A program made the position numbers and the translations under genes. This document shows, one piece after another, positions 14,226-37,212 of a stretch of 64,000 nucleotides of DNA. Each line of letters opens with the position of its first letter. Positions within the stretch are counted from its first letter, which is position 1. Origin of the DNA: Motilibacter peucedani. Lineage in GTDB: Bacteria; Actinomycetota; Actinomycetes; Motilibacterales; Motilibacteraceae. The notes below the pieces were generated by a model. The model searched no databases, was not told where the DNA came from, and saw nothing but the letters and a program-made list of their open reading frames with translations. The stretch is taken from positions 124,001-188,000 of the forward strand of contig NZ_RBWV01000009.1 of NCBI RefSeq assembly GCF_003634695.1. Reading direction: 5' to 3'.

Positions 14226-14231
14226 GCCACC

Positions 14232-14237
14232 AGGATG
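14232..14237 (-). promoter_or_regulatory. -10 element of the LexA-boxed small gene
   Basis: CATCCT on the minus strand lies 6 nt before GTG 14225 and directly downstream of the LexA box. Confidence 0.35.
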
Positions 14238-14242
14238 GCAGA

Positions 14243-14264: not shown

Positions 14265-14276
14265 GATCCGGCCTTG

Positions 14277-14699: not shown

Positions 14700-14883
14700 C
14701 GTGGAAGACCTCCTCGACCGGGGTGCGGAAGAGCCGCCCGATGCGCAGCGCGAGCGGCAGGCTCGGGTCGTAGCGACCGTTCTCGATCGCGTTGACCGTC
14801 TGGCGGGAGACCCCGAGCTGCGCCGCCAGGGCTCCCTGGCTGAGGCCTGCGCGCGTGCGCAGCTCGGCGACCTCGTTGCGCAC
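14668..14883 (-). CDS. XRE-family helix-turn-helix regulator
   Basis: A 71-residue Cro/CI-type DNA-binding protein. The helix-turn-helix is LSQGALAAQLGVSRQTVNAIE, followed by NGRYDPSLPLALRIGRLFRTPVEEVF, a typical short YgzD-like regulator. I chose GTG 14883 (VRNEVAELRTRAG) because this is where relatives begin and because a promoter (TTGACA, 18 bp, CATCGT) ends 6 nt before it. A dyad over the -35 box suggests self-repression. The longer open frame (TTG 14919) would run through the promoter. Confidence 0.88.
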   Translation of the reverse strand: MRNEVAELRTRAGLSQGALAAQLGVSRQTVNAIENGRYDPSLPLALRIGRLFRTPVEEVFHDDADVPATRG

Positions 14884-14889
14884 CTCGCC

Positions 14890-14931
14890 ACGATGCGCCG
14901 CGACAGGACCACCTGTCAAGCGTCCTTGACA
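14890..14931 (-). promoter_or_regulatory. Promoter and operator of the XRE gene
   Basis: On the minus strand, TTGACA (14914-14919), an 18-bp spacer and CATCGT (14890-14895) lie 6 nt before the start codon. The inverted repeat TGTCAAG-N4-CTTGACA (14914-14931) overlaps the -35 box, an ideal site for autorepression. Confidence 0.65.
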
Positions 14932-14952
14932 GCCCGACCGTGCCCGGACACA

Positions 14953-14991
14953 CCGCAGCGGCGCCCCCCGAGGAGGGGAGCGCCGCTGCGG
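14953..14991 (-). terminator. Strong terminator hairpin after the GH3 gene
   Basis: CCGCAGCGGCGC (14953-14964) pairs perfectly with GCGCCGCTGCGG (14980-14991) over 12 bp, with further C/G pairing in the loop. It lies 20 nt beyond the GH3 stop. Confidence 0.75.
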
Positions 14992-15010
14992 GTCGTACGT
15001 GCCGGCTGGC

Positions 15011-18000
15011 CTAGAAGTGGAACGGCCAGGAGGCGTTGACCCAGGTGGTGGCCTGGCCCGCCGTCAGCGTGACGGTGGAGGCGCCGGCCTGGTCGGCGGA
15101 GCCGTTCGGCGTGCCGTTGAACCACTGCGGCGCGTAGCCGCTGGCGGGGTTCACGAACTCGACCTGGTAGTCGCCGGGCGCCACCCCGTCGAACTCGTAG
15201 CTGCCGTTGCTGCCCGTCGTGGCCGCAGGGACCGCGTCGGTGGTGCTGCCCACCGGCACGAGGTGGACCGCGACGCCTGTCGCCGGGAAGCTGAAGCTGT
15301 TGCCCCCGAACGAGATCGACAGGTTCGTCGAGCCGGCGAGGACCGCGGTGGTCGACGTCGGCGCCTGGCCCAGCACCGTGAGGTGCAGCTGCTGGGTGGC
15401 AGCGGGCAGGCCGTTCGACGCGGACAGCGTCACCGCGTACCCGCCCTGGGTGCCGGCCTCCGGAGTGCCGGACAGGGTGGCGGTGCCGTCACCGTTGTCC
15501 TTGAAGGTCACGCCGGTCGGGAGTGCGCCCGACTCGGTGATCGCCGCGGTCGGGAACCCGGTCGTCGTCACCGTGACGGTGCCCGCCGAGCCGGCCACGA
15601 ACGTCGCGTTCGCCGAGGAGGTGATGGCCGTACGCGTGCCGACGCTCAGCACGAACTGCTGCGTCTGCGTCGGCGAGACGCCGTTGGAGGCCGTGATGGT
15701 GACCGGGAAGCTGCCCGTCGTCGCGGGCGCCGTGCCGGCGATCGTCGCCGTCCCGTCGCCGTTGTCGGTGAAGGTGATGCCCGCGGGCAGCGCACCCGAC
15801 TCGGTCAGCGTGGCCTGAGGCACCGCGTTGGTGGTCACCGTGAAGGTGCCCGCCGCGCCGGCCTCGAAGACGGCCGAGGGGTTGGACGTGATCTGCAGCG
15901 GGGCCACGTTGACGGTGAAGTCGGTGGACACCTTGGTGCCGCGGTACTTCAGCGTCGCCGTGACGGTGGCGATGCCGCTGCCGACCGTGCGCAGCGTGCT
16001 GCCCTGGACGGCCACGACGCTGCTGCGGTTGGAGGAGAAGGACACGGTCGCCCCGGCGGGGAGCGGCGTGCTCTTGCCCTTGGTGATGTAGCCGTAGAGG
16101 CTCTGGTCGTCCATCGAGACCGTGAGCTGCGGGTCGATGGTCGTGCCGACCGCGACCTGCACGCGCTGCGCGACCTGCTTGGCCGCGTCACCCGCCTGCA
16201 CCGGCTTGGCCGTCAGGACAGCCGGCTCGGCAGCGATGGTGCCGCTGACCGACAGGGTGCCCTTGAGCTTGACGTCGGTGGAGGACGCCGCGACCTGGAG
16301 GCCGTAGCGGCCCGGGTCGACGACGTACTTGTTGGAGGCCTCGTCCCAGAAGGCCAGCTTGCTGGCCGGCACGCGGAACTCGACGGTCTTGCTGTGGTTG
16401 GCGCGGATGTCGACCTTGTCGGAGGCCAGCAGGCGCTTGACCGGACGTTGCTTCGAGGCGGGCTCGAACGGCGTGGTCGCGTAGAGCTGCGCCACCTCGG
16501 CGCCGTCGACGTCACCGGTGTTCTTCACCCGGGCCCGCACGACGATGTCCTGGTTCGGGTCGACCGCGTCGCGCTGGATGCGCAGGCGCTCGTAGGAGAA
16601 CGAGGTGTAGCTGCCGCCGTAGCCGAAGGGGTAGGTCGGCTTGCCGGTGAAGTACTGGTACGTGCGGCCCTGCGTGGTGGCGGTGGGCCGGATCGTGTAG
16701 TCGCTGATGGGCGGCAGCTGGCTGTCGTTGGCGTACCACGTGAAGGGCAGGTGGCCGCTCGGGTTGACCTTGCCGAAGAGGACATCGGCGAGGGCGTTGC
16801 CCTGCTCCTGACCGTTGTAGGAGCTCCACACCAGCGCGTTGGCCTTCGACTGGAACGCCGAGACGTCGACGGCGCCGACGGTCTCGAGGTAGACGACGGT
16901 GCGCGGGTTGGCCGCGACGGCCTGGCGGATCATCTCCGACTGGGCGCCGGGCAGCGCGATCGTCTCGCGGTCGTTGTCCTCGGCGGAGGTGCCGTTGTCG
17001 GTGCCGGCGACCACGATCACCGCGTCGTAGCCCTTGGCGGCCGCGATCGAGGCCTGGTCCACAGTGGTCAGGCTGGAGGCGGAGGTGCCGCCGGTGACGC
17101 CGGGCAGGAAGTCGACGGTGGCGGCGGGGTTGACTGCCTGCACCGCGGCCTTGATGCCCTGGTAGGAGTCGACGTTGTTCGCCGAGCCGGAGGCAGCCTG
17201 GATGGCCGAGTAGCCACCGAGGTAGAGCCCGCCGCTCGGGTGGCCGAAGTAGCCCATGACCGCGACCTTGTAGGAGCCCTTCGCGGGCACCTGCAGCGGG
17301 AGCAGCGGGTTCTTCTTGACCTTGGAGTTCTTCAGCAGCACCAGGCTCTCGTCGGCCGAGGCGCGGGCCTGGGCCAGACGCTCCGGGGTCTCGGTGATCG
17401 CCTTGTTGGCGTCGCTGCTGACCCAGGTGGTGCCACCGAGGCGCGTGCGGGCGGCCTGCACCCACGGCACGAGGTTCTCGGCGTCGAACTCGCCGGTCTC
17501 GATGCGCGCGGTGAACAGGCGCACGGCGGAGACGTCGACGTCACCCTCGTTGTAGATGTCGGTCTGCGTCTGGATGTGCTGCGCGACCGCGGTGGGGATC
17601 GTGTTGCCGTAGCCGTACTGGTCGGAGTAGCCCGCGTTGCAGTCGAGGTCCTCGCCCGCGGAGTTCGCGAAGGCGGTGCGGCCGTACTGGTCGAGCGGGG
17701 CGGACGCCTCCGGCGGCTGCCAGTGGTGGTCCTTCTGGATGACCTCGACCGCGTCGCAGTCGCTGGTGAAGTAGCCGTCGAAGCCGAACGTCTGACGCGC
17801 CAGGGTGTCCATGAGCTGCACGCTGGCCGCGGCCGGGACGCCGTTGACCTCGTTGTAGGAGCTCATGATCGAGCCGGGGTGCGCCTGCTGGACGATCTGG
17901 GCGAACTGCGAGGTGTAGTACTCGCGCAGCGTGCGCTGGTCCATGTTGGCCGTGCCCTGGCGGCGGTCGACCTCGCTGTTGTTCGCGGCGTAGTGCTTCA

Positions 18001-18637
18001 GCGTCGCGATGGCCTTGTAGTAGCCGTTGGCAGACGGGAGGAGCTTGCCGTCCTGCGTCTGGCCCTGGAGGCCGTCGACGTACTGAGAGGCGAGGTTCGC
18101 CGTCAGCGTCGGGTCCTCGCTCCACGACTCGTCGTTGCGCCCCCACCGCGGGTCGCGCGTGAGGTTGACGGTCGGGGCGTAGAAGTCGAGGTTCTGCGTG
18201 TTGAAGGGCGCGACGTCGCGCGCCTCGTCGCCGATGAGGCTCGACTCCTTGTAGACCAGGTCAGGGTTCCACGTGCTGCCCAGGGAGAGGTCCGAGGGGT
18301 ATGACGTGGTATTGGTCAGGGTCGTGGCGTTGCCCGAGGGCGTCAACGTCAGCGCGTTGATGCCGTGGTTCGCCTCGTTCCACCAGCCCCACTCGGCGAT
18401 CCCCAGCCGGGGGATGGCAGGAGCACGACTGCTGTTCATCTCCGAGGCCTTCTCGGCCAAGGTCATCCGGGAGACCAGGTCCGCGGCCCGCTCGACGGGC
18501 GAGTAGCTCCGGTCGAGGTAGATCGGCGTCTCGGACGCCGATGAGGATGGAGCCGCAGCAGCGGTCGCCGCCATTCCGGCGACCGCACTGGTGATCACCA
18601 CGCCTACCGTGGTGAGGGATGAAGCCCAACGGTGCAT
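15011..18637 (-). CDS. Secreted GH3 beta-xylosidase-like glycoside hydrolase with Ig-like tail
   Basis: A 1,208-residue exported enzyme. ATG 18637 begins a signal peptide (MHRWASS through ATAAAA). The GH3 N-domain spans about 45-340, with WGWWNEANHGINA as in xylosidases and the nucleophile D293 in YFTSDCDAV. The GH3 C-domain spans about 430-640 (VVAGTDNGTSAED) and a FnIII-like domain lies around 660-780. A BIG2-like stretch (about 820-910), two putative Ig repeats (about 912-1090, each with LTESGALP/ITESGALP and DNGDGTAT) and a C-terminal Cna-like domain (about 1090-1208) follow. The added domains are unusual for GH3 xylosidases (about 750-900) and suggest cell-surface or polymer attachment. 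The promoter at 18731-18759 shares an element with the GH8 gene. Confidence 0.9.
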   Translation of the reverse strand: MHRWASSLTTVGVVITSAVAGMAATAAAAPSSSASETPIYLDRSYSPVERAADLVSRMTLAEKASEMNSSRAPAIPRLGIAEWGWWNEANHGINALTLTPSGNATTLTNTTSYPSDLSLGSTWNPDLVYKESSLIGDEARDVAPFNTQNLDFYAPTVNLTRDPRWGRNDESWSEDPTLTANLASQYVDGLQGQTQDGKLLPSANGYYKAIATLKHYAANNSEVDRRQGTANMDQRTLREYYTSQFAQIVQQAHPGSIMSSYNEVNGVPAAASVQLMDTLARQTFGFDGYFTSDCDAVEVIQKDHHWQPPEASAPLDQYGRTAFANSAGEDLDCNAGYSDQYGYGNTIPTAVAQHIQTQTDIYNEGDVDVSAVRLFTARIETGEFDAENLVPWVQAARTRLGGTTWVSSDANKAITETPERLAQARASADESLVLLKNSKVKKNPLLPLQVPAKGSYKVAVMGYFGHPSGGLYLGGYSAIQAASGSANNVDSYQGIKAAVQAVNPAATVDFLPGVTGGTSASSLTTVDQASIAAAKGYDAVIVVAGTDNGTSAEDNDRETIALPGAQSEMIRQAVAANPRTVVYLETVGAVDVSAFQSKANALVWSSYNGQEQGNALADVLFGKVNPSGHLPFTWYANDSQLPPISDYTIRPTATTQGRTYQYFTGKPTYPFGYGGSYTSFSYERLRIQRDAVDPNQDIVVRARVKNTGDVDGAEVAQLYATTPFEPASKQRPVKRLLASDKVDIRANHSKTVEFRVPASKLAFWDEASNKYVVDPGRYGLQVAASSTDVKLKGTLSVSGTIAAEPAVLTAKPVQAGDAAKQVAQRVQVAVGTTIDPQLTVSMDDQSLYGYITKGKSTPLPAGATVSFSSNRSSVVAVQGSTLRTVGSGIATVTATLKYRGTKVSTDFTVNVAPLQITSNPSAVFEAGAAGTFTVTTNAVPQATLTESGALPAGITFTDNGDGTATIAGTAPATTGSFPVTITASNGVSPTQTQQFVLSVGTRTAITSSANATFVAGSAGTVTVTTTGFPTAAITESGALPTGVTFKDNGDGTATLSGTPEAGTQGGYAVTLSASNGLPAATQQLHLTVLGQAPTSTTAVLAGSTNLSISFGGNSFSFPATGVAVHLVPVGSTTDAVPAATTGSNGSYEFDGVAPGDYQVEFVNPASGYAPQWFNGTPNGSADQAGASTVTLTAGQATTWVNASWPFHF

Positions 18638-24554: not shown

Positions 24555-25883
24555 GTGTCCAGAGCCACCACGGACCTCGCGCAGCACGCGCGGCAGGGCA
24601 GTGGTTGGCGCTCGCTGACCTGGCCCCTCGGCAACACGCGCAGGCGGAGCGCAGACCCCGTCGGGCAGCCGCCCTCGGTCGCAGTTGCGGACCTGCGCGG
24701 ACGGAACGCCGCGGTCGTGCTCACGACCCTGCGCAACGCACCCGAGGGCATGAAGGTAGCCCCCTTGGCGGACGTGACGGCGCTGTCCCGGCCGACGATC
24801 GAGGTCATCGTCGACGACCTGAAGTCAGTAGGACTGGTGGTCGAGCTCCCCCCGACCAGCTCGGTCGGTCGTCCCGCTCGCCGGTTCGCCTTCAACCCCG
24901 GGGCTGCGCACGTCGTCGGCGTGGATGTCCGCGCCCACGAGGTCGCTGCCTCGGTCGTGGACCTCGACGGTCGCGTGCTCGCCCGCGAGCGCAAGCGTGT
25001 CCGTCGAGACCTCCGCGGCAGGGCGCGAGCTGCAGCCACCGTCGAGGTCGTGAGGGTGGCGCTGTCACGTGCCGACGTCTCGGTCGACACCGTGGCCGCG
25101 GCGGTCGTCGGGACACCCGGGTGGGTGGAGGACAACGCCAGGGTCCGCTACGTCGACAACCTGCGCGACTGGGCCGAGACCGACATCGCAGGCATCCTGG
25201 CGGCAGAGCTGAAGTGCGCTGTCGCTGTGGACAACGACGCCAACCTCGCCGCAGTCGGGGAGCACTCCCAGGGCGTGGCGCACGGCGTGGACGACCTCAT
25301 CTTCATCCTGCTCGGGGAGCGCGTAGGGGCCGGCATCATCGCCGGCGGAAGACCGCTGCACGGGCACCACGGTGCTGCCGGCGAGATCGGCTTCATGGTC
25401 CACCCAGCAGGCAGCAGGCTCGCCGCGCGCGCCATCGGCGAGAAGGGCAAGTCCCGTCCCGGCCTCGACCCGCTGGACTTCAGCGCCGCCCACCTGGCGC
25501 AGGGCGCGCCAGGTGACCTCACCGCCGGACGCGAGGACCTGGAGTCCGTCGGCACGCGGCTCGCGCACGCGCTCGCTCCCACCCTGCTCGCCCTCGACCC
25601 CGCCATGGTGGTCCTCGGCAGCAACCTGTTCGGCGCCGCTGACAACGAGTCCGCGCGCGAGCGCGTGGTGTCCGCCGCCCGGGAGGAAGCACGAGCGCTC
25701 CTGGTCGACCCGCCGGAGTGGAGGGTCTCAGCGCTCGGCGACGACGTCGTCCTCGCCGGCGCCGCGACCTTCGCCCTGAGCGGCGTGGAAGCCGTGCTGG
25801 CCAGTGAGCCCCTGAGCCTGTTCCCGTCGTGGAGCTCGCCGAGCGCTCCGGCGACGCACCCCGCCGCGTCTCGTACTTCCTAG
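24555..25883 (+). CDS. ROK-family transcriptional repressor (likely regulator of the amino-sugar operon)
   Basis: A 442-residue NagC/XylR-type regulator. After a divergent N-terminus, the winged helix covers about 45-100 (RNAAVVLTTLRNAPEGMKV, then ALSRPTIEVIVDDLKSVGLV). The sugar-kinase-like domain follows: GVDVRAHEVAASVVDLDG, then VAVDNDANLAAVGEH. The zinc motif CxCGxxGCxE normally found after the active site is absent (GEIGFMVHPAGS instead), so the kinase fold is probably sensory only. It lies 176 bp upstream of the operon starting at 26060, whose promoter carries a 24-bp dyad. Repression by this protein, relieved by a sugar or phosphosugar, is inferred. Confidence 0.88.
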   Translation: MSRATTDLAQHARQGSGWRSLTWPLGNTRRRSADPVGQPPSVAVADLRGRNAAVVLTTLRNAPEGMKVAPLADVTALSRPTIEVIVDDLKSVGLVVELPPTSSVGRPARRFAFNPGAAHVVGVDVRAHEVAASVVDLDGRVLARERKRVRRDLRGRARAAATVEVVRVALSRADVSVDTVAAAVVGTPGWVEDNARVRYVDNLRDWAETDIAGILAAELKCAVAVDNDANLAAVGEHSQGVAHGVDDLIFILLGERVGAGIIAGGRPLHGHHGAAGEIGFMVHPAGSRLAARAIGEKGKSRPGLDPLDFSAAHLAQGAPGDLTAGREDLESVGTRLAHALAPTLLALDPAMVVLGSNLFGAADNESARERVVSAAREEARALLVDPPEWRVSALGDDVVLAGAATFALSGVEAVLASEPLSLFPSWSSPSAPATHPAASRTS

Positions 25884-25971
25884 GACGGCCCAGCCACCTC
25901 GGACCTGTCGAGGGTTCCGAGGTGTCCGCATCTCCTCCGGCGCACTCCCCCTGTCGACGCCCGACGTCACT

Positions 25972-26032
25972 TGACAGCGGCCTTGGCCGGCCCTAGATTC
26001 CCAGCCATTCTGAAACGCAACTGCGTTGCAGA
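25972..26032 (+). promoter_or_regulatory. Promoter and operator of the amino-sugar operon
   Basis: TTGACA (25972-25977), 16 bp and TAGATT (25994-25999) form a near-consensus promoter. Downstream, at the expected start of transcription, TCTGAAACGCA (26009-26019) and TGCGTTGCAGA (26022-26032) make 11-bp arms with one mismatch around 2 bases. A repressor bound here would block initiation. Confidence 0.8.
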
Positions 26033-26059
26033 ACGAAGCCAAGGCTTGGGAGTCAGCAG

Positions 26060-27061
26060 TTGAACCAGATCCGCGTGGGGGTGATCGGTGTCGGTGCGCT
26101 CGGCAGCATGCACCTCCGCAACCTCGCAAGCCTCCCTGCCTGCCGGGTGACGCACGTCGCTGACACCCACCTGTCAGAGGGCGGTGCGGCGACGGCCCAC
26201 CTGCACGGAGCCACGCTCACCGACGTCGCCTCGATGCTGGCCCCGGGGACCGTCGACGCCGTCGTCGTCTCCACCCCGACCGACACCCATGCGCAGCTGG
26301 TGGTGGCAGCTCTGCGCGCGGGTGTGTCGGTGTTCTGCGAGAAGCCGATGGCACGAACGGCCCAGGAGGCACGGACTCTCGTCGACCTGGCTCGGTCAAG
26401 GGGGGCGAAGGTCGCCGTCGGGCACGTCGTGCGCTACTTCCCGGAGTACGCAGCCGCCTACGACCTCGTGCGCGGCAAGCAGCTCGGCACAGTGCGCTCA
26501 GCGCGCATGGCGCGGCTGAACGCCTCACCCGGGCGCGTCCAGCAGTGGTACCGGCAGAGCGGTCGCAGCGGCGGGGTCCTGCTCGACATGGCCATCCACG
26601 ACATCGACTGGGCCTTGTGGACGTTCGGGCCTGCTGCTCGCGTGTTCGCCACCCGTGCAGGGGAACCGGGAGCCGAGGTCGTGTCCGTCACCCTCAAGCA
26701 CCTCGACGGGCAGATCACCTACCTGGACGCCAGCTGGCGCGACGACGCCTTCAGCACGTCGCTCGAGCTGTGGGGGTCCGAGGGGTTCTACCGGGTGGCA
26801 GGTTCCTCGTCCGCAGGGTTCGAGGTGTCCTGCCCGAGGACCGACCAGTCCGGCGACTACCTCCCCGGGCCCGACTCGAGCCCGGTCCCCGACGACCCCT
26901 ACCGGCTGGAGCTGGCCGCAGCCGTCGACTGGTTCGCCGGCACGGGTCCGGCTCCGCTGGCCACCGCCGAGGAGGGGCTCGCCGCCCTCCGCGTCGTCGA
27001 GGCAGCCGAAGCGAGCATCCAGAGCAGGCAGCCCGTCATGGTCGAGGAGGAGGCAGCATGA
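26060..27061 (+). CDS. Gfo/Idh/MocA-family oxidoreductase 1
   Basis: A 333-residue NAD(P)-dependent enzyme. The nucleotide fold is at the N-terminus (IRVGVIGVGALGSMHLRNL); CEKPMAR carries the family EKP motif; the second domain has GGVLLDMAIHDIDWALWTFG. The start is TTG 26060, the only start that keeps the beta strand intact, with GGGAG upstream. No signal peptide, so it acts in the cytosol. Relatives oxidise sugars or cyclitols, and some cleave glycosides through a transient 3-keto step. It is the first gene of the operon and overlaps the second dehydrogenase by 4 nt. Confidence 0.92.
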   Translation: MNQIRVGVIGVGALGSMHLRNLASLPACRVTHVADTHLSEGGAATAHLHGATLTDVASMLAPGTVDAVVVSTPTDTHAQLVVAALRAGVSVFCEKPMARTAQEARTLVDLARSRGAKVAVGHVVRYFPEYAAAYDLVRGKQLGTVRSARMARLNASPGRVQQWYRQSGRSGGVLLDMAIHDIDWALWTFGPAARVFATRAGEPGAEVVSVTLKHLDGQITYLDASWRDDAFSTSLELWGSEGFYRVAGSSSAGFEVSCPRTDQSGDYLPGPDSSPVPDDPYRLELAAAVDWFAGTGPAPLATAEEGLAALRVVEAAEASIQSRQPVMVEEEAA

Positions 27062-28032
27062 CCAGGGTCGGGTTCCTGGGCTGCGCGCACGTGCACGCGA
27101 CCACCTACTGCGACGAGCTGGGCCGTGCTTCGTCGGGGGCGGAGGCCGTCGCCGTCTACGACCACGACCCGCAGCGGCGCGACGCCTTCGCCCGCGACAA
27201 CGGTCTCGCGGCCATGCCGACCCCGGAGAGCCTGTGCGAGGTTGTCGATGCGGTCATCGTCACCAGCGAGCACGTCCACTACGCGGACCTGGTGGCCGCC
27301 GCAGCTGCCGCCGGCCTGCCCATCCTGTGCGAGAAGCCCCTCGGTGACACACCAGTCGCCTCAGACCTGCTGCGCTGCAGCGGCTCCTGGCTCTCGATGG
27401 CGCTCCCCGTGAGGTACGCACCGGCTGTGCAGTCGACCAGGGCCCTGGCGCAGTCCGGTGCCCTGGGCCGCCTGCTTGCCGCCAGCGGGGTCAACCACGC
27501 ACCCAACCCGGGCGGCTTCTTCACCGACCCCGCCCTCGCCGGTGGCGGCTCACTGCTCGACCACGTCGTCCACCTCGCGGACGCGCTGCGGTGGATCAGC
27601 GGTGCGGAGTACTCCTCGGTGTTCGCCGAGACGAGCCAGGCGTCCGACCTCGCCGTCGAGGACATCGCGCAGGTCGTCGCCTTCACCACGGACGACGCCT
27701 GGCTGACCATCGACGCGAGCTGGTCACGGCCGCGCGGCATGCTGGGCGGGGTCGACTTCCTCATGCGGCTGTGGTTCGAGCGCGGCCGGGTCGAGATCGA
27801 CGCCTTCGCCCGGCGCGCGGAGATCGTCCGACCCGGCGGCGCGGTGGAGCACCTGCCCTACGGCCGCGGCATCAACTCGAGCCTCCTGCAGCACTGGCTG
27901 CGGGCCATCCGCGACGGGGCACCCCCGCCCATCCCTGTCGAGGACGGCTGGCGTGCGACCGAGGTCGCGTTCGCCGCACTGCAGTCCGCCGCCAGCGCCT
28001 CGCTGGTCACACTTCCCACGAAGGAGCGCTGA
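27058..28032 (+). CDS. Gfo/Idh/MocA-family oxidoreductase 2
   Basis: A 324-residue paralogue of the preceding gene, though clearly diverged. The N-terminus is TRVGFLGCAHVHATTYCDEL, where the usual glycine loop is replaced by GCAHVHA, a variant seen in some family branches. The EKP motif is present (ILCEKPLGD). The catalytic region reads GGSLLDHVVHLADALRWISG. It starts at ATG 27058, overlapping the first dehydrogenase stop. Two such enzymes in tandem suggest sequential oxidation and reduction on one sugar substrate (inference). Confidence 0.9.
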   Translation: MTRVGFLGCAHVHATTYCDELGRASSGAEAVAVYDHDPQRRDAFARDNGLAAMPTPESLCEVVDAVIVTSEHVHYADLVAAAAAAGLPILCEKPLGDTPVASDLLRCSGSWLSMALPVRYAPAVQSTRALAQSGALGRLLAASGVNHAPNPGGFFTDPALAGGGSLLDHVVHLADALRWISGAEYSSVFAETSQASDLAVEDIAQVVAFTTDDAWLTIDASWSRPRGMLGGVDFLMRLWFERGRVEIDAFARRAEIVRPGGAVEHLPYGRGINSSLLQHWLRAIRDGAPPPIPVEDGWRATEVAFAALQSAASASLVTLPTKER

Positions 28033-28035
28033 GCC

Positions 28036-29055
28036 ATGCCTGCTGCACCTGCCCGCGCGAGCCTGCTGCGCCGAGGGGGCCTCTGGCTGGTCCTCGCGCT
28101 GGTCGTGGCCGTCCTGGCCGCGGTGTCCCCCACCTTCCGACAACCCCTCAACCTGCAGAACATCCTCGAGCAGAACTCGATCATCGGCATCGTCGCCTGC
28201 GGCATGATCGTGATGATGGTCTCGGGGGGCTTCGACCTCTCCGTCGGGGCGGTGGGGGTCTCCGCCTCCGTGCTCGCCGCCGTCGTCTCCGGTCGCGCGC
28301 CGGTCGCCGTCACGATCGGGGCGGCACTCGCCCTCGGGCTCGGGATCGGACTGGTCAACGGGTTCCTCATCGCCAGGGTCCGCATCAACGCCTTCGTCGC
28401 CACCTTCGCGATGGCGAGCGTCGTGTCCGGCCTGCTGTTCGTCTCGACCGGCGCAGAGTCCAAGCCCGCGGACGTCCGCCTGCTGGCCCAGGCCGCAGGC
28501 GACCGCGTCCTCGGCATCCCCGTCGTCTTCGTCATCTTCGTGCTGTGCCTGCTGTCGGTGTGGGTCTTCCTCACCCGGACCCGCTACGGCCACTACGTCT
28601 ACAGCGTCGGCGGCAACGACGAGGCGAGCCACCTGTCCGGGGTGCCCGTCGAGCGCGTACGCATGCTCGCCTTCGCCCTCGGCGGCCTGTTCGCCGGCGG
28701 AGCCGGGCTCCTGCTCCTCGGCCAGACCGCGGTCGGTCAGCCGACAGCAGCCTCCAACTGGCCGCTCCAGGCGATCGCCATCTGCGTCGTCGGAGGGGTG
28801 GCCCTGACGGGCGGGGTCGGGCGAGCCGAGGACGTGCTCGCTGCGACCCTCCTGCTCGGCGTCATCGCCAACGGCCTCAACCAGCTCAACGTCTCGCCGT
28901 ACTGGCAGCCCACCGTCACCGGCCTCGTGATCCTCGTCGCCGTGGTCCTCGAGCAGTACAACCGGCTCCACCGGCCGAGTCCGCGACCCGCGCCCGTGGC
29001 TCCGCAGACGGTGAGCCAACCCGTGACGGCGTCTGCGGCACGCACCGCCGACTGA
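28036..29055 (+). CDS. Ribose-type sugar ABC transporter permease
   Basis: A 339-residue RbsC-like permease with about nine hydrophobic segments. Typical pieces are QNSIIGIVACGMIVMMVSGGFDLSVGAVG, shown here only as the short core MVSGGFDLSVG, and later YSVGGNDEASHLSGVPVERV and ALTGGVGRAEDVL. Starts at ATG 28036, 3 nt after the second dehydrogenase. It works with the binding protein and ATPase that follow. The C-terminus carries a Pro/Ala-rich tail. Confidence 0.94.
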   Translation: MPAAPARASLLRRGGLWLVLALVVAVLAAVSPTFRQPLNLQNILEQNSIIGIVACGMIVMMVSGGFDLSVGAVGVSASVLAAVVSGRAPVAVTIGAALALGLGIGLVNGFLIARVRINAFVATFAMASVVSGLLFVSTGAESKPADVRLLAQAAGDRVLGIPVVFVIFVLCLLSVWVFLTRTRYGHYVYSVGGNDEASHLSGVPVERVRMLAFALGGLFAGGAGLLLLGQTAVGQPTAASNWPLQAIAICVVGGVALTGGVGRAEDVLAATLLLGVIANGLNQLNVSPYWQPTVTGLVILVAVVLEQYNRLHRPSPRPAPVAPQTVSQPVTASAARTAD

Positions 29056-29112
29056 CCTGCCAGCCCCTTCCGCCCACGCGACCCCACTCCCTCGAGCTCC
29101 CAGGAGAGACCC

Positions 29113-30195
29113 ATGTCCCGACGCACGACCCACCGCCCGGCGCTCCGCGTGCTCACCAGCTCGGTGACGCTGGCGGCCGCGCTCACCGCGCTCGCCGCCT
29201 GCGGTGCGAGCAGCGACCCGGCCCCCGCCGACGCTGCCTCGTCGGCCGCACCCGTACAGGCGTCACCCGCTCCTGCAGGGGCAGCGCAGCAGGCGGCCGA
29301 CCCCCACCTCCCCGCCGGGACGTGCAAGGGGAAGAAGGTCGGCCTGTCCAACATCTCCACGACCATCCCCTTCCTCGCCTCCATGGACGACGCCTTCAAG
29401 CAGGAGGCCGAGCGCCTGGGCATGAAGGCGACGATCCTCAACGGCAACCTGGACAACTCCACGCTCGTCAGCAACACCCAGAACCTCATCGCGCAGAAGG
29501 TGGACCTGCTGCTGGTCACGTCCTCGAGCCCGACAGCACCGCTCGGCGCGATCGGCCAGGCCCGCAGCGCCAAGATCCCCGTCATCGCGCTGAACGCGAA
29601 GCTCGACCCGAAGGCGGACGTGGTGACCTACGTCGGGGCCTCTGACTACCAGTACGGGCAGTCCTTGGGCGCACTGCTCAAGCAGGCACTGCCGGGCGGC
29701 GGCAAGATCGCCGTCATCCTCGGGCCGCTCGGCGGGACCCCGCAGGTGCAGCGGCTCAAGGGGATGCAGGACGCGCTGAAGGACTCGCCCGACTACACGA
29801 TCGTCGCCAAGCCCGTCGACGAGTTCGACAACAGCAAGAACCTCTCAGCGACGCAGGACCTGATGTCGAAGTACCCCAAGGGCAGCCTCGACGCAGTCGT
29901 CGCACAGGGCCCGCAGATGTACGTCGGCGCCAACTGGGCCAAGGACCACGGGCGCACCGACGTGAAGTTCATCGCCGGTGACTACTCGAAGCAGGTCGAG
30001 GACGCGATCCGCACCGGAGCGCTGTACGGCACCGTGAACCAGAGCCCGCGCCTGGAGGGACTGCTCGGAGCCGCGTACGCATGCATGCAGCTGAGCGGCC
30101 GCGGCGCCGACATCCCCGCACCGGACGCCCAGATCGCCCTGCCCACCATCACCAAGGACGACGTGGACGCCAACCCCTCGGAGTGGAGCGGCTGA
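29113..30195 (+). CDS. Sugar ABC transporter substrate-binding lipoprotein
   Basis: A 360-residue type I binding protein. The signal peptide ends at the lipobox LAAC and is followed by an Ala/Ser/Pro linker of about 40 residues. The mature fold starts KKVGLSNISTTIPFLASMDDAFKQEA, in shortened form VGLSNISTTIPF, as in ribose/galactose-binding proteins; VTSSSPTAPLGAI and AVVAQGPQMYVGA lie in the sugar pocket region. A clear AGGAGA ribosome site precedes ATG 29113. The specific sugar is not readable from sequence. Confidence 0.94.
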   Translation: MSRRTTHRPALRVLTSSVTLAAALTALAACGASSDPAPADAASSAAPVQASPAPAGAAQQAADPHLPAGTCKGKKVGLSNISTTIPFLASMDDAFKQEAERLGMKATILNGNLDNSTLVSNTQNLIAQKVDLLLVTSSSPTAPLGAIGQARSAKIPVIALNAKLDPKADVVTYVGASDYQYGQSLGALLKQALPGGGKIAVILGPLGGTPQVQRLKGMQDALKDSPDYTIVAKPVDEFDNSKNLSATQDLMSKYPKGSLDAVVAQGPQMYVGANWAKDHGRTDVKFIAGDYSKQVEDAIRTGALYGTVNQSPRLEGLLGAAYACMQLSGRGADIPAPDAQIALPTITKDDVDANPSEWSG

Positions 30196-30276
30196 GAACG
30201 ACGCTCGAGGAGCCGATGCACCTCGGTGGGCTCCGCCTCAGAACCGCCGCACCCAGCAACCCGGGAAGGGAACCCC

Positions 30277-31815
30277 ATGCCCACCGTCCGGCTGAAGACC
30301 AGGGGCCTCACCAAGCAGTTCGGCTCCGCAGTCGTCCTCAAGGGCGTCGACTTCGACGTGCGCGAGGGTGAGATCCACGGGCTGATCGGACAGAACGGCG
30401 CCGGCAAGTCGACCTTGGTCAAGACCCTGGCCGGGCTCTACCCCGACCACGGCGGCACCGTCGAGGTCGACGGCCAGCGCGTCGGCCTGCGCACCCCGCG
30501 CCAGTCGCGGGCAGAGGGCATCGCGGTGATCTACCAGGAGTTCAGCCTGGTGCCCTCGATGACCGTCGCCGAGAACCTGCTGCTGGGACGCGAGAAGCAC
30601 GCGGTCCGCTACAGCTCGCCGGCCACGCGGCAGGAGGCCGCTCGCCTGCTCGAGTCCGTGCAGATCGACATCGGGGCGTCCTTGGACACGCCGGTCGCCG
30701 AGCTCAGCCCCGCCGTCATGCAACGGATCGAGATCGCCAAGGCGCTCGCCCAGGACGCCAGCGTCCTGGTCATGGACGAGCCCACGGCCCGGCTCTCGGA
30801 GGAGGAGCGGGGTTGGCTGTTCTCGACGATGCGACGGCTCTCCGACAGCGGAGTGGGCATCATGTTCATCTCCCACTTCCTCGAGGAGGTGCGAGGGGTC
30901 ACCGACCATCTCACCGTCCTGCGCAACGGGGCGGTGGTCGGCGAGGGCAGCACCAGCGCGTTCAGCGTCGCCCGGATGGCCGAGCTCATGCTCGGCGAGG
31001 GGCTGAAGTCCGCCCTGGAGAGCGAGAGCCACATCAGCCGGGCGGGCCCGGCCAACCCCGTCGTGCTCAGTGCTCAGCACGTCGTCGGCGGGGAGCGGCT
31101 CGGCCCCGTCTCCCTCGAGCTCCGGGCGCGGGAGATCGTGGGAGTCGCCGGCCTCGTCGGCTCCGGGCGTACGCGGCTGGCCCGCGTGCTGACGGGAGCG
31201 GACCGTCCGACCGGCGGCCACATCGCGGTCGAAGGCCAGACCGTCACCTTCCGCAGCCCGCGCCAGGCGATCGCCAGCGGCGTGGTCCTCGTGCCCGAGG
31301 ACCGGAAGCACCAGGGGCTCAGCCTGGTCGCGCCGGTCGCGGACAACCTGAGCCTGATGTCCCTGCAGCAGCGACGGGGCAGGGCCGGCTTCGTCGGCAG
31401 GAGGTACGTCAGGTCCCTCGCCCAGAGCCTGGTCACCGACCTGCAGGTCGCCCCTCCGCGCATCGACCTGCCTGCCAGCGCCCTCAGCGGCGGGAACCAG
31501 CAGAAGGTGCTGCTGGGCAAGGCGATCGCGGCGAGGCCGCAGGTCCTGGTCATCGACCAGCCCACCGCCGGCGTCGACGTCGGGACCAAGGCGCAGATCC
31601 ACGGCCTGCTCCACGCGATGGCCGACGACGGGGTGGCGCTGATGGTGGTCTCCGACGACATCGACGAGCTGTACGCGCTGAGCGACCGGCTCTGTGTCAT
31701 GCGCAAGGGAAGGATCGTCTGGCAGGGCACACCCGGCCAGGTCGGACGCGAGGAGCTGCTGGCCATGATGTCCGCCGCCACCGACGACGCCACGGACGAG
31801 GAGGCCTGCGGATGA
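30277..31815 (+). CDS. Sugar ABC transporter ATPase (RbsA-like, two NBDs)
   Basis: A 512-residue double ATPase. NBD1 has Walker A GQNGAGKST and Walker B VLVMDEPTA, but a degenerate signature (LSPAVMQR). NBD2 has the usual atypical P-loop (VGSGRTRLAR), an intact signature LSGGNQQK, and Walker B VLVIDQPTAGVDVG in which the catalytic Glu is Gln. Thus only the composite site NBD1-Walker/NBD2-signature looks fully competent. I chose ATG 30277 (GGGAAGGGA upstream) over an upstream in-frame start because alignment begins at RLKTRGLTKQF. The stop overlaps the next start. Confidence 0.94.
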   Translation: MPTVRLKTRGLTKQFGSAVVLKGVDFDVREGEIHGLIGQNGAGKSTLVKTLAGLYPDHGGTVEVDGQRVGLRTPRQSRAEGIAVIYQEFSLVPSMTVAENLLLGREKHAVRYSSPATRQEAARLLESVQIDIGASLDTPVAELSPAVMQRIEIAKALAQDASVLVMDEPTARLSEEERGWLFSTMRRLSDSGVGIMFISHFLEEVRGVTDHLTVLRNGAVVGEGSTSAFSVARMAELMLGEGLKSALESESHISRAGPANPVVLSAQHVVGGERLGPVSLELRAREIVGVAGLVGSGRTRLARVLTGADRPTGGHIAVEGQTVTFRSPRQAIASGVVLVPEDRKHQGLSLVAPVADNLSLMSLQQRRGRAGFVGRRYVRSLAQSLVTDLQVAPPRIDLPASALSGGNQQKVLLGKAIAARPQVLVIDQPTAGVDVGTKAQIHGLLHAMADDGVALMVVSDDIDELYALSDRLCVMRKGRIVWQGTPGQVGREELLAMMSAATDDATDEEACG

Positions 31816-32816
31816 ACCGGCCCGGCGAGGCGATGCTTGCCGAGATCGCCGAGCAGCCCGCCGCCCTCCAACGGCTCCTGCACGACGGCTCGGAGGAGAT
31901 CGCGAGCGCCCGTCGCCGCATCGCCTCGTTCGCGCCGCGCCTGGTCCTGTTCGTCGGGCGCGGCACCAGCGGGCACGCGGGCGTCTACGCCAAGTACCTC
32001 ACCGAGGTGCACGGTGGTCTGCCCACGGGCTTCATCTCCCCCTCGTCCCTGACGGTCTACAAGGCCCGCCCTGTCCTCGACAAGGCGGTCGTCATCACCG
32101 TCAGCCAGTCGGGAGGGTCACCGGACCTCGTCGAGGCGACGGCAGCCCTCAAGGCGCTCGGCGCGCTGACGGTGGCGGTGACCAACAACGCCGCCTCTGC
32201 GCTCGCGGCGGTCGCCGACCTGCACGTCGACGTCCTCGCCGGCCCCGAGAAGGCGGTCGCGGCGACGAAGACCTACACCTCCGAGCTGCTCGCCCTCTAC
32301 CTGCTGCTGGTGGGCGGTGACGCCTCCGCCGTCCCGGGCGCGGCCCAGGCGACCCTGGAGCACGACGAGCAGGTCGACCGCGCCGCCGAGAGGTACCGGT
32401 TCACCCAGCGCGTCATCACCACCGGACGCGGCTTCTCCTCGGCCACCGCGAGCGAGGCGGCCCTCAAGCTGATGGAGACGAGCTACCTCTCGGCCCAGGC
32501 CTTCTCCGCGGCTGAGCTGCTGCACGGGCCGATCGCCGTCCTCGGGCCAGGGGTCCCCGTCATCGCGGTGCGCACGCCGGGCGCCGGGGCCGACTCCATG
32601 AGCCCGCTCCTGGAACGGCTGGCCGCCGAACGGGTGGACGTGCTGACCGTCGGTCCGGCGGGCGGTCTCGAGGTGGCGACGGACGGGCTGCCGGAGGAGC
32701 TGCACCCAGTCGTGAACATCCTGCCCCTGCAGCGACTCGCGTGGCGCCTCGCGCTCGACCGCGGGGAGGACCCCGACCGTCCGCGCGGGCTGCTCAAGGT
32801 CACCGAGACGTGGTGA
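31812..32816 (+). CDS. Double-SIS-domain sugar-phosphate deaminase/isomerase (NagB-II/AgaS-like)
   Basis: A 334-residue protein with two SIS domains, like the isomerase half of GlmS. First domain: FVGRGTSGHAGVYAKYLTE and ITVSQSGGSPDLVEA. Second domain: TTGRGFSSATASEAALKLMET and AAELLHGPIAVL. No glutaminase domain, so it is not GlmS. Such proteins deaminate glucosamine-6-phosphate to fructose-6-phosphate (NagB-II) or act on galactosamine-6-phosphate (AgaS). Placement beside nagA supports this. ATG 31812 and GTG of the next gene both overlap by 4 nt. Confidence 0.88.
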   Translation: MNRPGEAMLAEIAEQPAALQRLLHDGSEEIASARRRIASFAPRLVLFVGRGTSGHAGVYAKYLTEVHGGLPTGFISPSSLTVYKARPVLDKAVVITVSQSGGSPDLVEATAALKALGALTVAVTNNAASALAAVADLHVDVLAGPEKAVAATKTYTSELLALYLLLVGGDASAVPGAAQATLEHDEQVDRAAERYRFTQRVITTGRGFSSATASEAALKLMETSYLSAQAFSAAELLHGPIAVLGPGVPVIAVRTPGAGADSMSPLLERLAAERVDVLTVGPAGGLEVATDGLPEELHPVVNILPLQRLAWRLALDRGEDPDRPRGLLKVTETW

Positions 32817-33763
32817 CGGCACCGCTCGGCACGGACGGGTACGTGGTGGCGGTCGACGTGGGCGGGACCTCGCTCAAGGGTGCTCGGACCGCCACCGGCG
32901 GAGAGGTCCTCGAGACGGTCGAGGTCCCCACGGGTCGGGGTGCCGACGCGGTCGACCAGGTCCTGTCGCTGTGCCGGTCCCTCGCCGGTCCGCGCACCGT
33001 CGCAGTCGGCCTGGCGGTCCCCGGACTCGTCGACAGCGACCGCGGTGTGGTGCGCTACGCCGCCAACCTCGGCTGGCGCGACCTCCCGCTGCGTGACCTC
33101 GTCGCCGACGAGCTGGGTCTGCCGGTCACCGTCGAACAGGACGTCCGTGCCGCGGGCAGGGCCGAGGCGGCCCTCGACCGGGACGGTGCGGGCGGCAGCC
33201 TGCTGCTCGTGGTCCTCGGCACCGGCGTCGGCGCCACCGTGGTGTTCGACGGTCTCCCCGTCGTGGGCGACACCAGCACGGCCGGCGAGTTCGGCCACGT
33301 GGTCACCCGACCCGGCGGCTTGGCCTGCACCTGCGGGCAGCGGGGGTGCCTCGAGGCGTACGCGTCCGCGGCGTCCATCGCTCGCAGGTACCACGCAGCC
33401 GGCGGCGACAGGAGCGCCACGGCCGCCGAGATCGCGACGTCCGTCGACCCGCTCGCCCTGCAGGTGTGGCAGGAGGCGGCCGACGCGCTCGGGCTGGCAC
33501 TCGCCGGGGCCACGGTCCTGCTCGACCCGGCGGCGATCGTCCTCGCCGGCGGGCTCAGCCGGGCCGGCAGCCGCCTCGTCGATCCCGTCCACCGCTCGCT
33601 CCAGCAGCAGCTCGCCTGGCGCGACGCCCCACCCGTGCGGCTCTCCCGCTTGGGCTCGAGGGCCGGGCAGGCCGGCGCCGCGCTCGTCGCCTGGGAAGCC
33701 GCTGCAGCGCTCGGCACCGGTCGGCCCGCGGGCCGGACGCCCGCACCGCGGCTGCGCAGATGA
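32813..33763 (+). CDS. ROK-family sugar kinase (probable N-acetylhexosamine kinase)
   Basis: A 316-residue ROK kinase. The phosphate-binding loop is VAVDVGGTSLKG; the catalytic Asp lies in VTVEQDVRAAG; the zinc motif CxCGxxGCxE is intact in CTCGQRGCLEAYAS, in contrast to the upstream ROK regulator. ROK kinases of this layout phosphorylate glucose, N-acetylglucosamine or N-acetylmannosamine. Position between SIS and nagA favours N-acetylhexosamine. GTG 32813 overlaps the SIS stop (GTGA), which decides the start. Confidence 0.93.
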   Translation: MTAPLGTDGYVVAVDVGGTSLKGARTATGGEVLETVEVPTGRGADAVDQVLSLCRSLAGPRTVAVGLAVPGLVDSDRGVVRYAANLGWRDLPLRDLVADELGLPVTVEQDVRAAGRAEAALDRDGAGGSLLLVVLGTGVGATVVFDGLPVVGDTSTAGEFGHVVTRPGGLACTCGQRGCLEAYASAASIARRYHAAGGDRSATAAEIATSVDPLALQVWQEAADALGLALAGATVLLDPAAIVLAGGLSRAGSRLVDPVHRSLQQQLAWRDAPPVRLSRLGSRAGQAGAALVAWEAAAALGTGRPAGRTPAPRLRR

Positions 33764-34926
33764 CCACGTACGTCGCAGCGACGCGGCTGGTCACGCGTGA
33801 CGGTGTGCTCAGCCCCGGCTGGGTCAGCGTGGAGAACGGCGTGTTCACCGAGGTAGCGAGCGGGTCACCGCCGGAGTCGGCCTCGGTCCAGCGAACGCTG
33901 GACGGGTGGGCGGTCCCGGGGTTCATCGACCTGCACATGCACGGCGGCGGCGGGTTCGACGTCGCGGCCTCCCCCGAACAGATGATGGGCGCCGTCGAGT
34001 TCCACCAGCGGCACGGGACGACCCGGACCCTGGTCTCGCTCGTCGCGGCCCCGTTGACCGACCTGCGGACGCAGCTGGGCTGGGTCGCCGGGTTGGCCGG
34101 CGACGCCTGCCTCGGGGCCCACCTGGAGGGGCCCTTCCTGGCTGCATCCGCGTGCGGCGCGCAGAACCCGCTCTTCCTGCGTCACCCCGACCCCGCCCTG
34201 GTGGAGCAGCTCGCGGGAGCGGCTCGGGGTCACCTGCGCACGATCACCGTCGCACCGGAGCTGCCCGACGCGCTGGCCTCCACCCGCGCCGCGGTCGAGC
34301 TCGGAGTGGTGGTCGGGGTCGGGCACACGGCCGCGTCCTACGACGAGGCCAGCGCTGCGTACGAGTCGGGCGCGACGCTCGCCACGCACCTCTTCAACGC
34401 GATGCCGGCCATCCACCACCGGGAGCCCGGAGCGGTCACTGCCGCTCTCCGGTACGCGGTGGGCTGCGAGGTCGTCAACGACGGCGTTCACGTCCACCCG
34501 GCCATCTCCTCGCTGGTCGCAGAGGTCCCGGGGCGCCTCGCGCTGGTGACCGACGCCATGGCGGCCGCCGGCGCGCCCGCCGGCCGCTACCGCCTCGGCG
34601 GCCAGGACGTCGACGTCGTGGACGGCCAGGCCCGGCTCTCCCGCTCCGGGGCACTGGCCGGCAGCACCCTCACGATGGACGCGGCGTTCCGCCGCTCGGT
34701 GCGGCAGTCCGGGCTCACCGTCGAGGCGGCCTCACGGGCCGCGTCCGCGAACCCCGCACGCGTCCTCGGCATCGCCGCCACGCACGGCTCGATCGCGCCC
34801 GGGTACGTCGCTGACCTCGTCGACCTCGACGACGACCTGCACGTCCGGGCCGTGATGCGCGCCGGGAGCTGGCTGCCCGCTCACGCCCCCCGGCGCTCCC
34901 CCGTGCGCGCACGGGCGCAGACGTAG
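33760..34926 (+). CDS. nagA: N-acetylglucosamine-6-phosphate deacetylase
   Basis: NagA removes the acetyl group from N-acetylhexosamine-6-phosphate. The 388 residues keep all metal and substrate residues: DLHMHGGGGFD, GAHLEGPFLA, VGHTAASYDEA, THLFNAMPAIHHREPG, NDGVHVHPA and VTDAMAAAG (catalytic Asp). ATG 33760 overlaps the kinase stop by 4 nt. It is the last gene of the operon, followed by a double hairpin. The product would feed the SIS deaminase, closing a route to fructose-6-phosphate. Confidence 0.96.
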   Translation: MTTYVAATRLVTRDGVLSPGWVSVENGVFTEVASGSPPESASVQRTLDGWAVPGFIDLHMHGGGGFDVAASPEQMMGAVEFHQRHGTTRTLVSLVAAPLTDLRTQLGWVAGLAGDACLGAHLEGPFLAASACGAQNPLFLRHPDPALVEQLAGAARGHLRTITVAPELPDALASTRAAVELGVVVGVGHTAASYDEASAAYESGATLATHLFNAMPAIHHREPGAVTAALRYAVGCEVVNDGVHVHPAISSLVAEVPGRLALVTDAMAAAGAPAGRYRLGGQDVDVVDGQARLSRSGALAGSTLTMDAAFRRSVRQSGLTVEAASRAASANPARVLGIAATHGSIAPGYVADLVDLDDDLHVRAVMRAGSWLPAHAPRRSPVRARAQT

Positions 34927-35004: not shown

Positions 35005-37212
35005 TCAGCTGATGCGCGACACCCCCGTCCGGGACCAGTGCCGGTGGGCGGCGACGGCGGCGACGAAGCTGGGGGCCGCCGCCTGAGCGGTCGCGGCCAC
35101 CACGACACCGGGCTCCCGCGAGAGGGACCCCAGAGCGGCGCGCGGCACGGCTGAACCGTCCCCGGACGCTCCGATCGCCTTGTAGTGCATGAAGGCCTCC
35201 TCGACGAAGTGCACGGCCGCACCGTTCGAGGTGAGGGACGCCGTGCCGCCTGCGACGAACAGCGCGTCGAACTGGACCGACTTGGACGTCAGGTAGGTCA
35301 TGGTCGCGGTGACGGAGCCACCCGACGCGGGGATCGGCCCCAGCCGAGGGCCCACGACGACCGGCGTCACCCTCGCCCGCCGCAGCGCGGCGCTGATGGC
35401 GGCGACATCGGTCGCGGAGACGCCCTCCGCCACGAGAACGCCCACCTTGCGCGTCGCCGCGTCGGGCTTCGAGATGCGCTCCTGGCTGAGCGAGGGCGCG
35501 GTCCCGATCCGGGTGTTGGGCGAGCCGGACGGCACCGGCAGGCCGAGGTAGCCGGCGACCTCCCTCACCAGCCGGTCGTCGATGTTGGCGAGCAGCCCGA
35601 GCATGCGCTCCTGCACTGCCTTCACCGTCACGTGGCCGAGCTCGAACTGCAGGGCCTGGATGATGTGCTGCTTCTCCGGCTCGGTCATGCTCTGGAAGAA
35701 CAGCGTCGCCTGGCTGAAGTGGTCTGCGAAGGTACTGCTGCGTGCCCTGATCTTCGTGCCGGACACGGGCTCGGCGTAGGAGACGTAGCCGCCGGCCGCA
35801 GCGCTCGACTCGTGACCCGTGCCACCGGGCAGCGAGTTCGGCTCGTAGTTCACGCGTCCCGGCCGGTTCGCGTAGCGCATGAACCCGTCCTGCTGGAAGT
35901 TGTTGACGGGCGAGCGGGGCTGGTTGACCGGCAGCTGGGTCCAGTTGGGCCCGTTGAAGCGGTTGAGCTGGGTGTCGAAGTAGGAGAAGTTGCGGCCCTG
36001 CAGCAGGGGGTCGTCGCTGAAGTCGATGCCCGGCACCACGTGGCTGGTGCAGAAGGCGACCTGCTCGGTCTCGGCGAAGTAGTTCTGCGGGTTGCGGTTC
36101 AGCGTCATGGTGCCGACCAGCTGGACGGGGACGACCTCCTCCGGCCACAGCTTCGTCGCGTCGAGCACGTCGAACGTCACCTTGTCGACGTCGTTCTCCG
36201 CGAGCAGCTGGACGCCCAGGTCCCACTTCGGGAAGTTGCCGGCGTCGATCGCCTCGGCGAGGTCGCGGCGGTGGAAGTCGGGGTCGACGCCTCCGAGCTT
36301 CTGCGCCTCGTCCCACACGAGCGAACGGACACCGAGCCTGGGCTTCCAGTGGAACTTGACGAGGGTGGAGCGACCCGACGCGTCGACCAGCCGGAAGGTG
36401 TGGATGCCGAAGCCCTCCATCATCCGGAAGCTGCGCGGGATGCCGCGGTCGGACGTGACCCACATCAGCATGTGGGCCGACTCCGGCGTCAGGGAGATGA
36501 AGTCGTAGAACGTGTCGTGAGCGGTGGAGGCCTGCGGGACCTCGATGTGCGGCTCCGGCTTGAACGAGTGGACCAGGTCGGGGAACTTGATGGCGTCCTG
36601 GATGAAGAAGACCGGGATGTTGTTGCCCACGAGGTCCCAGATGCCCTCGCTGGTGTAGAACTTCGTCGCGAAGCCCCGGGCGTCCCGGGCGGTGTCGGCC
36701 GACCCGCGGGAGCCGTTGACCGTCGAGAAGCGGACGAAGACCTCGGTGCGCGCGCCGACCTGGGTGAGCACCTTGGCGCTGGTGTACTGCGCGAGCGAGG
36801 TGTGGAGCTCGAAGACGCCGTGCGCGCCCGCACCGCGGGCGTGCACGACGCGCTCCGGGATCCGCTCGTGGTCGAAGTGCATCATCTTCTCGCGGAAGAA
36901 GGGGTCCTCGAGCAGGGACGGGCCCCTCGTCCCGGCCCGCAGGGTGTTCTGGTCGTCGGAGATGCGGACGCCGAGGTTGCTGGTCAGCGCCGCGCCGTGC
37001 TTGACCTGCGGACCGGGGGCGCCCGGGACGGCGCCGGGCTCCAGCCGCGTCGTGGCCGCCTCAGCGTCGCCGGCGCCGGCGACGGCGCCGGCCAGGGCGA
37101 TCGCACCTGCTCCGGCGCCTGCGGCGGCCATGAAGTGCCGGCGCGAGAGTCCGGAGGCGCCCTCGTCGGAGGGCTGCTGACTGTCCTGGGGATTGCGGAC
37201 CGACTCGGTCAC
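35005..37212 (-). CDS. katE: Large-subunit catalase (HPII type) with predicted Tat signal
   Basis: A 735-residue clade-2 catalase that removes hydrogen peroxide with heme. Catalytic His124 is in [12 protein letters not shown], the distal Asn in [10 protein letters not shown], and the proximal heme Tyr in [11 protein letters not shown]. The last 130-150 residues form the DJ-1/PfpI-like domain of this clade ([15 protein letters not shown]). Unusually, the N-terminus reads [24 protein letters not shown] (RR at 24-25 plus a hydrophobic stretch), a Tat export signal, so it may act outside the membrane. Start GTG 37212 follows AAGGAG. Confidence 0.96.

Follow-up and report, generated by a model that had tools for sequence, protein, structure and literature searches.

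Closest described systems

In the breakdown of levoglucosan by Bacillus smithii, LgdA oxidizes C3, LgdB1/LgdB2 carry out elimination and hydration, and LgdC, a member of the Gfo/Idh/MocA superfamily, reduces 3-ketoglucose (PMC7676230). The glycosidases of families GH109 (N-acetylgalactosaminidase) and GH188 (sulfoquinovosidase) share the Gfo/Idh/MocA fold, depend on nicotinamide adenine dinucleotide (NAD) and proceed by oxidation, elimination, hydration and reduction (PMC10755693). Keto-sugar chemistry of this superfamily is already known; the new part is its joining to a route via N-acetylglucosamine-6-phosphate deacetylase (NagA) and a deaminase, as proposed for a locus of Motilibacter peucedani. 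The locus is located at positions 24555-34926 of a 64,000-nucleotide stretch of contig NZ_RBWV01000009.1 (the window; all coordinates below are window positions unless a contig is named). It consists of a ROK regulator gene followed by an eight-gene operon on the (+) strand, which begins with the genes of two Gfo/Idh/MocA oxidoreductases, Gfo1 (TTG start, 26060..27061) and Gfo2 (27058..28032). The explanation favored here, though held tentatively, is that a masked N-acetylhexosamine is unmasked via a keto intermediate with loss of its C1 substituent and then processed by kinase, NagA and deaminase.

The locus resembles the levoglucosan pathway in that two Gfo/Idh/MocA dehydrogenases are clustered with an ATP-binding cassette (ABC) sugar importer and keto chemistry would provide a free sugar for a kinase. 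The levoglucosan pathway, in contrast, comprises two TIM-barrel enzymes, acts on a neutral sugar and includes neither NagA nor a deaminase. GH109 has the fold and the N-acetylhexosamine glycoside substrate in common with the proposed route, whereas both GH109 and GH188 are single, self-contained enzymes. Another parallel is NanOx/YjhC (2,7-anhydro-Neu5Ac oxidoreductase), which also belongs to the Gfo/Idh/MocA superfamily and, via a keto intermediate, unmasks an amino sugar after its import. However, it is one enzyme found beside sialic-acid genes, none of which is present in the window operon. A literature search, which covered few subscription journals, returned no paper on 3-keto-N-acetylglucosamine catabolism or on a route of this type.

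A second amino-sugar operon in the genome

Domains of the window proteins were assigned with Pfam and NCBIfam, and the genes and coordinates of a preliminary description of the locus were recovered, all on one strand. Exact 4-nt overlaps at four junctions (gfo1/gfo2, ATPase/SIS, SIS/ROK and ROK/NagA) fit an operon organization. The expected motifs are present in the ROK sugar kinase (GTG start, 32813..33763, with DxGGT and the zinc motif CTCGQRGCLE), in NagA (33760..34926), which scores 255.6 bits against the TIGR00221 cut-off of 225.65, and in the SIS-domain aminosugar-phosphate isomerase/deaminase of the NagB-II/GlmS-isomerase type (31812..32816). The sequences thus support an intact set of kinase, NagA and deaminase that would be enough for N-acetylglucosamine (GlcNAc) and to which the dehydrogenases are surplus. 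The preliminary description had argued in the same way that these three enzymes and the importer suffice for an N-acetylhexosamine. Its placement of the dehydrogenases as the first two genes applies only after the ROK regulator, and its assignment of NAD dependence is a probable property derived from the protein family.

At most, a NagB-II-like function is suggested for the SIS protein. Its top-scoring families are the GlmS isomerase domain and the NagB-II deaminase, and the GlmS-like LKLxE, HGP and C-terminal Lys are retained. The nearest solved structures are mostly uncharacterized, with a glucosamine-6-phosphate (GlcN6P) deaminase, 8eol, in third place, and the score for the NagB-II family NF046059 (190 bits) lies below the cut-off of 430 bits.

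A canonical GlcNAc/chitooligosaccharide operon is encoded elsewhere in the same genome (G000:C15:192501-212500, locus L125, positions 9176-18007). It contains a ROK regulator, a CUT1 importer, a GH3 beta-N-acetylhexosaminidase-like protein, a ROK kinase, NagA (247 bits) and NagB, the latter two above their family cut-offs. Because a complete GlcNAc-type operon exists on contig C15, the window operon is a second set; where L125 has the glycosidase, it has the Gfo pair. Both operons encode a ROK regulator, an ABC importer, a ROK kinase, NagA and a GlcN6P deaminase; GH3 hexosaminidase, CUT1 importer and classical NagB of L125 contrast with Gfo pair, CUT2 importer and SIS deaminase in the window. 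Of the local evidence, this difference in gene content argues most strongly that the Gfo pair would perform a preparatory step ahead of the kinase. Since GlcNAc is already served by an operon with a GH3 hexosaminidase, a modified or glycosylated N-acetylhexosamine, as proposed in the preliminary description, is a sensible guess for the substrate.

The sister species of the same genus (G001) carries a syntenic gfo1-gfo2-permease-binding protein-ATPase-ROK kinase cluster. Identities to the window proteins are 68% for the regulator, 56% for gfo1, 58% for gfo2, 76% for the permease, 76% for the binding protein, 65% for the ATPase and 55% for the ROK kinase. A classical NagB gene, divergent on the 5' side, replaces the SIS gene, and the cluster contains neither SIS nor NagA, the latter being located elsewhere. 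Comparison of the two gene contents suggests that Gfo pair, importer and kinase form a stable core with an interchangeable deaminase, and the coupling of this core to a GlcN6P-type deaminase in both species ties it to an amino sugar. The same comparison bears on the possibility that this is an ordinary second GlcNAc-utilization operon in which the dehydrogenases are dispensable for the main pathway. Kinase, NagA and deaminase are indeed all standard and the relatives of the pair are mostly found elsewhere, but the pair holds operon positions 1-2 in both species although NagA and the deaminase gene were exchanged, and it stands beside NagA again in distant lineages, which makes such an operon improbable.

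Conservation of the Gfo pair in bacteria and archaea

Relatives of the pair were collected by a profile (alignment-based) search with Gfo2 in one genome per species; a contig scan with the window Gfo2 sequence alone gave no relative, whereas the alignment scan did. The search yielded 80 Gfo2 relatives at 28-40% identity from Actinomycetota, Chloroflexota, Armatimonadota, Bacillota, Planctomycetota, candidate phyla and archaea. In 62 of the 80 loci, a Gfo1 homolog is encoded directly upstream on the same strand. The spacing is ≤60 nt in 56 of these 62, and the commonest spacing, a 4-nt overlap, is found in 23. The gfo1-gfo2 order is also kept in all 15 Jiangellaceae-family genomes recovered in the search of the class. 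Gfo1-Gfo2 is a conserved cross-phylum module. When 393 genomes of the class were searched for relatives of the binding protein and of either Gfo protein, the window-type operon was found in its own genus only.

In line with the preliminary description, relatives of the pair adjoin NagA, SIS and kinase genes. In an Anaerolinea metagenome-assembled genome (MAG; L099), the cluster consists of ROK kinase, CUT1 importer, Gfo1, Gfo2, NagA and SIS deaminase, and in another Chloroflexota MAG (L121) of Gfo1, Gfo2, ROK kinase and NagA. Terrimesophilobacter (L115) encodes a BadF-type kinase, a GntR regulator, a CUT1 importer, NagA, Gfo1 and Gfo2. Locus L093 combines PIG-L, an importer, Gfo1, Gfo2, GH20 and SIS, and GH20 is adjacent to the pair in L069 and L102 as well. 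NagA was seen near the pair three times, compared with 0.15-0.44 expected on an assumed background of 0.2-0.6 per Mb. Importer family, kinase family and deaminase type vary from cluster to cluster, suggesting that such clusters were assembled more than once.

Two further types of neighbor were found. In Jiangellaceae, a CUT1 importer precedes the pair, together with a secreted protein about 1500 aa long that has a glucose/sorbosone dehydrogenase (GSDH) domain, two PF06439 (3-keto-disaccharide hydrolase) domains, DUF1349 and a plastocyanin-like stretch (L020-L032, e.g. L027:630-5174). These secreted proteins are encoded directly upstream of importer and pair, an arrangement that resembles an extracellular 3-keto-glycoside system. 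In L082 and L086, a PF01261 TIM barrel is encoded 5' of the pair. A separate observation concerns a 466-aa family without Pfam match that is encoded beside a PIG-L deacetylase near the Gfo pair of two Anaerolineae (L093:1809-3209 and L083:1516-2916); it is a possible new amino-sugar enzyme.

In a quick tree of Gfo2, one 22-row clade (support 96) holds most rows with amino-sugar context (L083, L093, L099, L115, L116 and L121) together with the Jiangellaceae rows. The window operon is linked to the other NagA-linked clusters by shared gene context, not by close kinship. A bolder and rather doubtful generalization is that amino sugars are recurrently broken down along a branch free of hydrolases. 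Two distinct Gfo/Idh/MocA enzymes, co-translated as a pair, would free or remodel N-acetylhexosamines via 3-keto intermediates and feed kinase, NagA and deaminase, and such routes would have arisen independently in Actinomycetota and Chloroflexota from different importers, kinases and deaminases. A large share of the carbon and nitrogen in soil and cell walls is held in amino sugars, whose metabolic entry is normally attributed to hydrolases. If true, a redox route to GlcNAc would escape annotation built on glycosidases and could serve compounds that are closed to hydrolases. The cross-phylum Gfo1-Gfo2 pair provides a two-gene marker that makes a hunt for the substrate practical.

Motifs and predicted structures of Gfo1 and Gfo2

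Both proteins belong to the Gfo/Idh/MocA superfamily by their Rossmann domain (PF01408), C-terminal domain and EKP and DxxxH residues. Gfo1 has the nucleotide motif GVGALG, in line with the standard GxGxxG of its family, EKP (Lys95) and D176xxxH180xxD183. Gfo2 retains EKP (Lys93) and D168xxxH172xxD175, with GCAHVH in place of the glycine motif. Throughout the Gfo2 family, the motif (S/G)xAHxHxxxY stands in place of the Rossmann glycine motif, and its residues H11, H13 and Y17 are invariant in 46 sequences from many phyla. Judged by these motifs, Gfo1 and Gfo2 are separate subfamilies.

AlphaFold2 models were obtained with mean predicted local distance difference test values of 90.6 (Gfo1) and 91.0 (Gfo2). 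The Gfo1 model matches GenD2 (Z 39.8), KanD2 (38.9), 1,5-anhydrofructose reductase (38.3), levoglucosan dehydrogenase (37.9) and WlbA (37.6), and the Gfo2 model matches 1,5-anhydrofructose reductase (37.0), GenD2 (36.3), DgpA1 (36.2) and levoglucosan dehydrogenase (35.8). Several of these structural neighbors, including some of Gfo1, are 3-dehydrogenases of glycosides or sugar nucleotides. The searches single out no specific family, as the top matches are only a few Z units apart, and so small a spread between model-based matches does not assign a substrate. The aminoglycoside dehydrogenases GenD2 and KanD2, the best structural matches of Gfo1, are biosynthetic, share about 25% identity with it and lie outside any import or NagA context. 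By profile, Gfo1 matches entry 8w9s best. For the levoglucosan-dehydrogenase family (cut-off 650 bits), Gfo1 scores 65 and Gfo2 37 bits.

Both models also match structures of GH188, with Z 34.0-36.5. Together with the fold and mechanism shared by GH109 and GH188, this would suit a single Gfo protein acting as an NAD-dependent glycosidase on an N-acetylhexosamine glycoside, with the redox cycle in one active site and the other protein as an accessory or acting on a different derivative. The hallmark of GH109 is a GGHGG loop with the catalytic acid/base histidine, as named by a paper cited in PMC10755693. A string search of both window proteins found this loop in neither, and membership of the pair in GH109 was rejected. 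Distinguishing features of GH188 are a C-terminal histidine, His321 in ArSqgA, and residues that bind the sulfonate; the Gfo1 and Gfo2 models match it in overall fold. Gfo1 has no histidine beyond residue 214. Many other Gfo families fit equally well or better, and a single-enzyme glycosidase leaves the joint retention of two genes unexplained. It is therefore considered quite unlikely.

The best full-length NCBIfam match of Gfo1 is the inositol 2-dehydrogenase IolG (148 bits, far under the cut-off of 355 bits), which could suggest that the dehydrogenases work on an aglycone or on a cyclitol moiety such as inositol in a mycothiol-related GlcNAc-inositol derivative. The cluster has no inositol-pathway gene, however, and the pair is widespread in Chloroflexota, Armatimonadota, Bacillota and archaea, which are not known to produce mycothiol. 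Action on a cyclitol thus has little probability.

Proposed route and possible redox epimerization

By analogy with the levoglucosan pathway, Gfo1 may be the oxidizing and Gfo2 the reducing partner, with the C1 substituent lost in between. The operon would be substrate-inducible, and its CUT2 ABC importer would bring in a masked N-acetylhexosamine such as a glycoside, an anhydro-sugar or another C1-linked derivative. In the cytosol, Gfo1 would oxidize a ring hydroxyl with NAD, most likely at C3. The ketone would acidify H2 and permit beta-elimination of the C1 substituent, followed by addition of water. Gfo2, co-translated with Gfo1, could use the NADH formed to reduce the 3-keto-N-acetylhexosamine to GlcNAc with zero net redox change, and ROK kinase, NagA and SIS deaminase would yield fructose-6-phosphate, acetate and ammonia. 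Elimination and hydration might fall to a Gfo protein, in the manner of GH109/GH188, or to an unlinked TIM-barrel protein, or might proceed without any enzyme. We infer the substrate class, the C3 position, the order of the two enzymes and the cleavage itself.

Several observations weigh against this route. NagA, GH20 or NagB-II is found within 5 kb of the pair in only 6 of 76 loci, with other genes at most of them, which implies that the pair family is not amino-sugar-specific. In the Gfo2 tree, window and sister species form their own deep lineage (stem 1.65) outside all 76 others, and the window Gfo2 does not have the YPTWG motif of its relatives; the substrate of the window pair may thus differ from those of its relatives. 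The PF06439 protein, part of DUF1080/PF06439 3-keto-glycoside hydrolase systems and present in the Jiangellaceae clusters, has no match in the genomes of M. peucedani and its sister species. A PF01261 eliminase/hydratase is not encoded within the operon, while seven are encoded elsewhere in the genome, and the missing GGHGG loop also counts here. The oxidative bond cleavage of the preliminary description is therefore not established, the more so as epimerization needs just the two dehydrogenases, and its interpretation is partly supported overall. As an observation of its own, a further Gfo/Idh/MocA gene of the M. peucedani genome adjoins a PF01261 TIM barrel at G000:C16:96260-98387, possibly a separate keto-sugar or inositol module.

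The main rival is redox epimerization, in which one dehydrogenase would oxidize an unusual N-acetylhexosamine and the other reduce it from the opposite face to GlcNAc, for example at C3 of N-acetylallosamine or C4 of GalNAc. The genes present suffice for it: two co-translated dehydrogenases with intact Lys/Asp/His motifs in an operon that has no eliminase, hydratase or glycosidase. Pairs of Gfo/Idh/MocA enzymes are known to interconvert inositol epimers. The 3-keto-disaccharide hydrolase domains in Jiangellaceae and the TIM barrel in L082/L086, encoded beside relatives of the pair, suit cleavage better, and epimerization is regarded as somewhat unlikely.

Importer, regulator and flanking gene

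The importer is of the CUT2 ribose type, as described earlier. It comprises a ribose/arabinose-type permease (BPD_transp_2, 28036..29055), a substrate-binding lipoprotein (Peripla_BP_4, lipobox LAAC, 29113..30195) and a double ABC ATPase of the RbsA/AraG type (about 30277..31815). The binding protein was aligned with the E. coli ribose-binding protein and compared at the pocket positions, including the ribose-clamping arginines R90/R141. Arg90 is replaced by Ala, Arg141 by Val, Asn190 by Gly, Asn64 by Thr and Asp89 by Asn, while Phe15, Phe164, Asp215 and Gln235 are retained. Because of these substitutions, ribose is unlikely as the ligand. The smaller number of large polar pocket residues is soft evidence for space for a bulkier ligand.

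The ROK-family transcriptional regulator (24555..25883, (+) strand) has a winged-helix N-terminus and a ROK domain. A promoter/operator region is predicted upstream of gfo1 (25990..26060, (+) strand), where a TTGACA element precedes a palindrome that is nearly perfect, TTCTGAAACGCA-AC-TGCGTTGCAGAA (26008-26033). A regulon based on this palindrome was considered but dropped, as the genome has just one copy of it. The half-site CAACTGCGTTGC is conserved 5' of gfo1 in the sister species. Convergent with the operon, a large protein that resembles catalase and has a twin-arginine-like N-terminus, assigned by eye, is encoded at 35005-37212 on the (-) strand.

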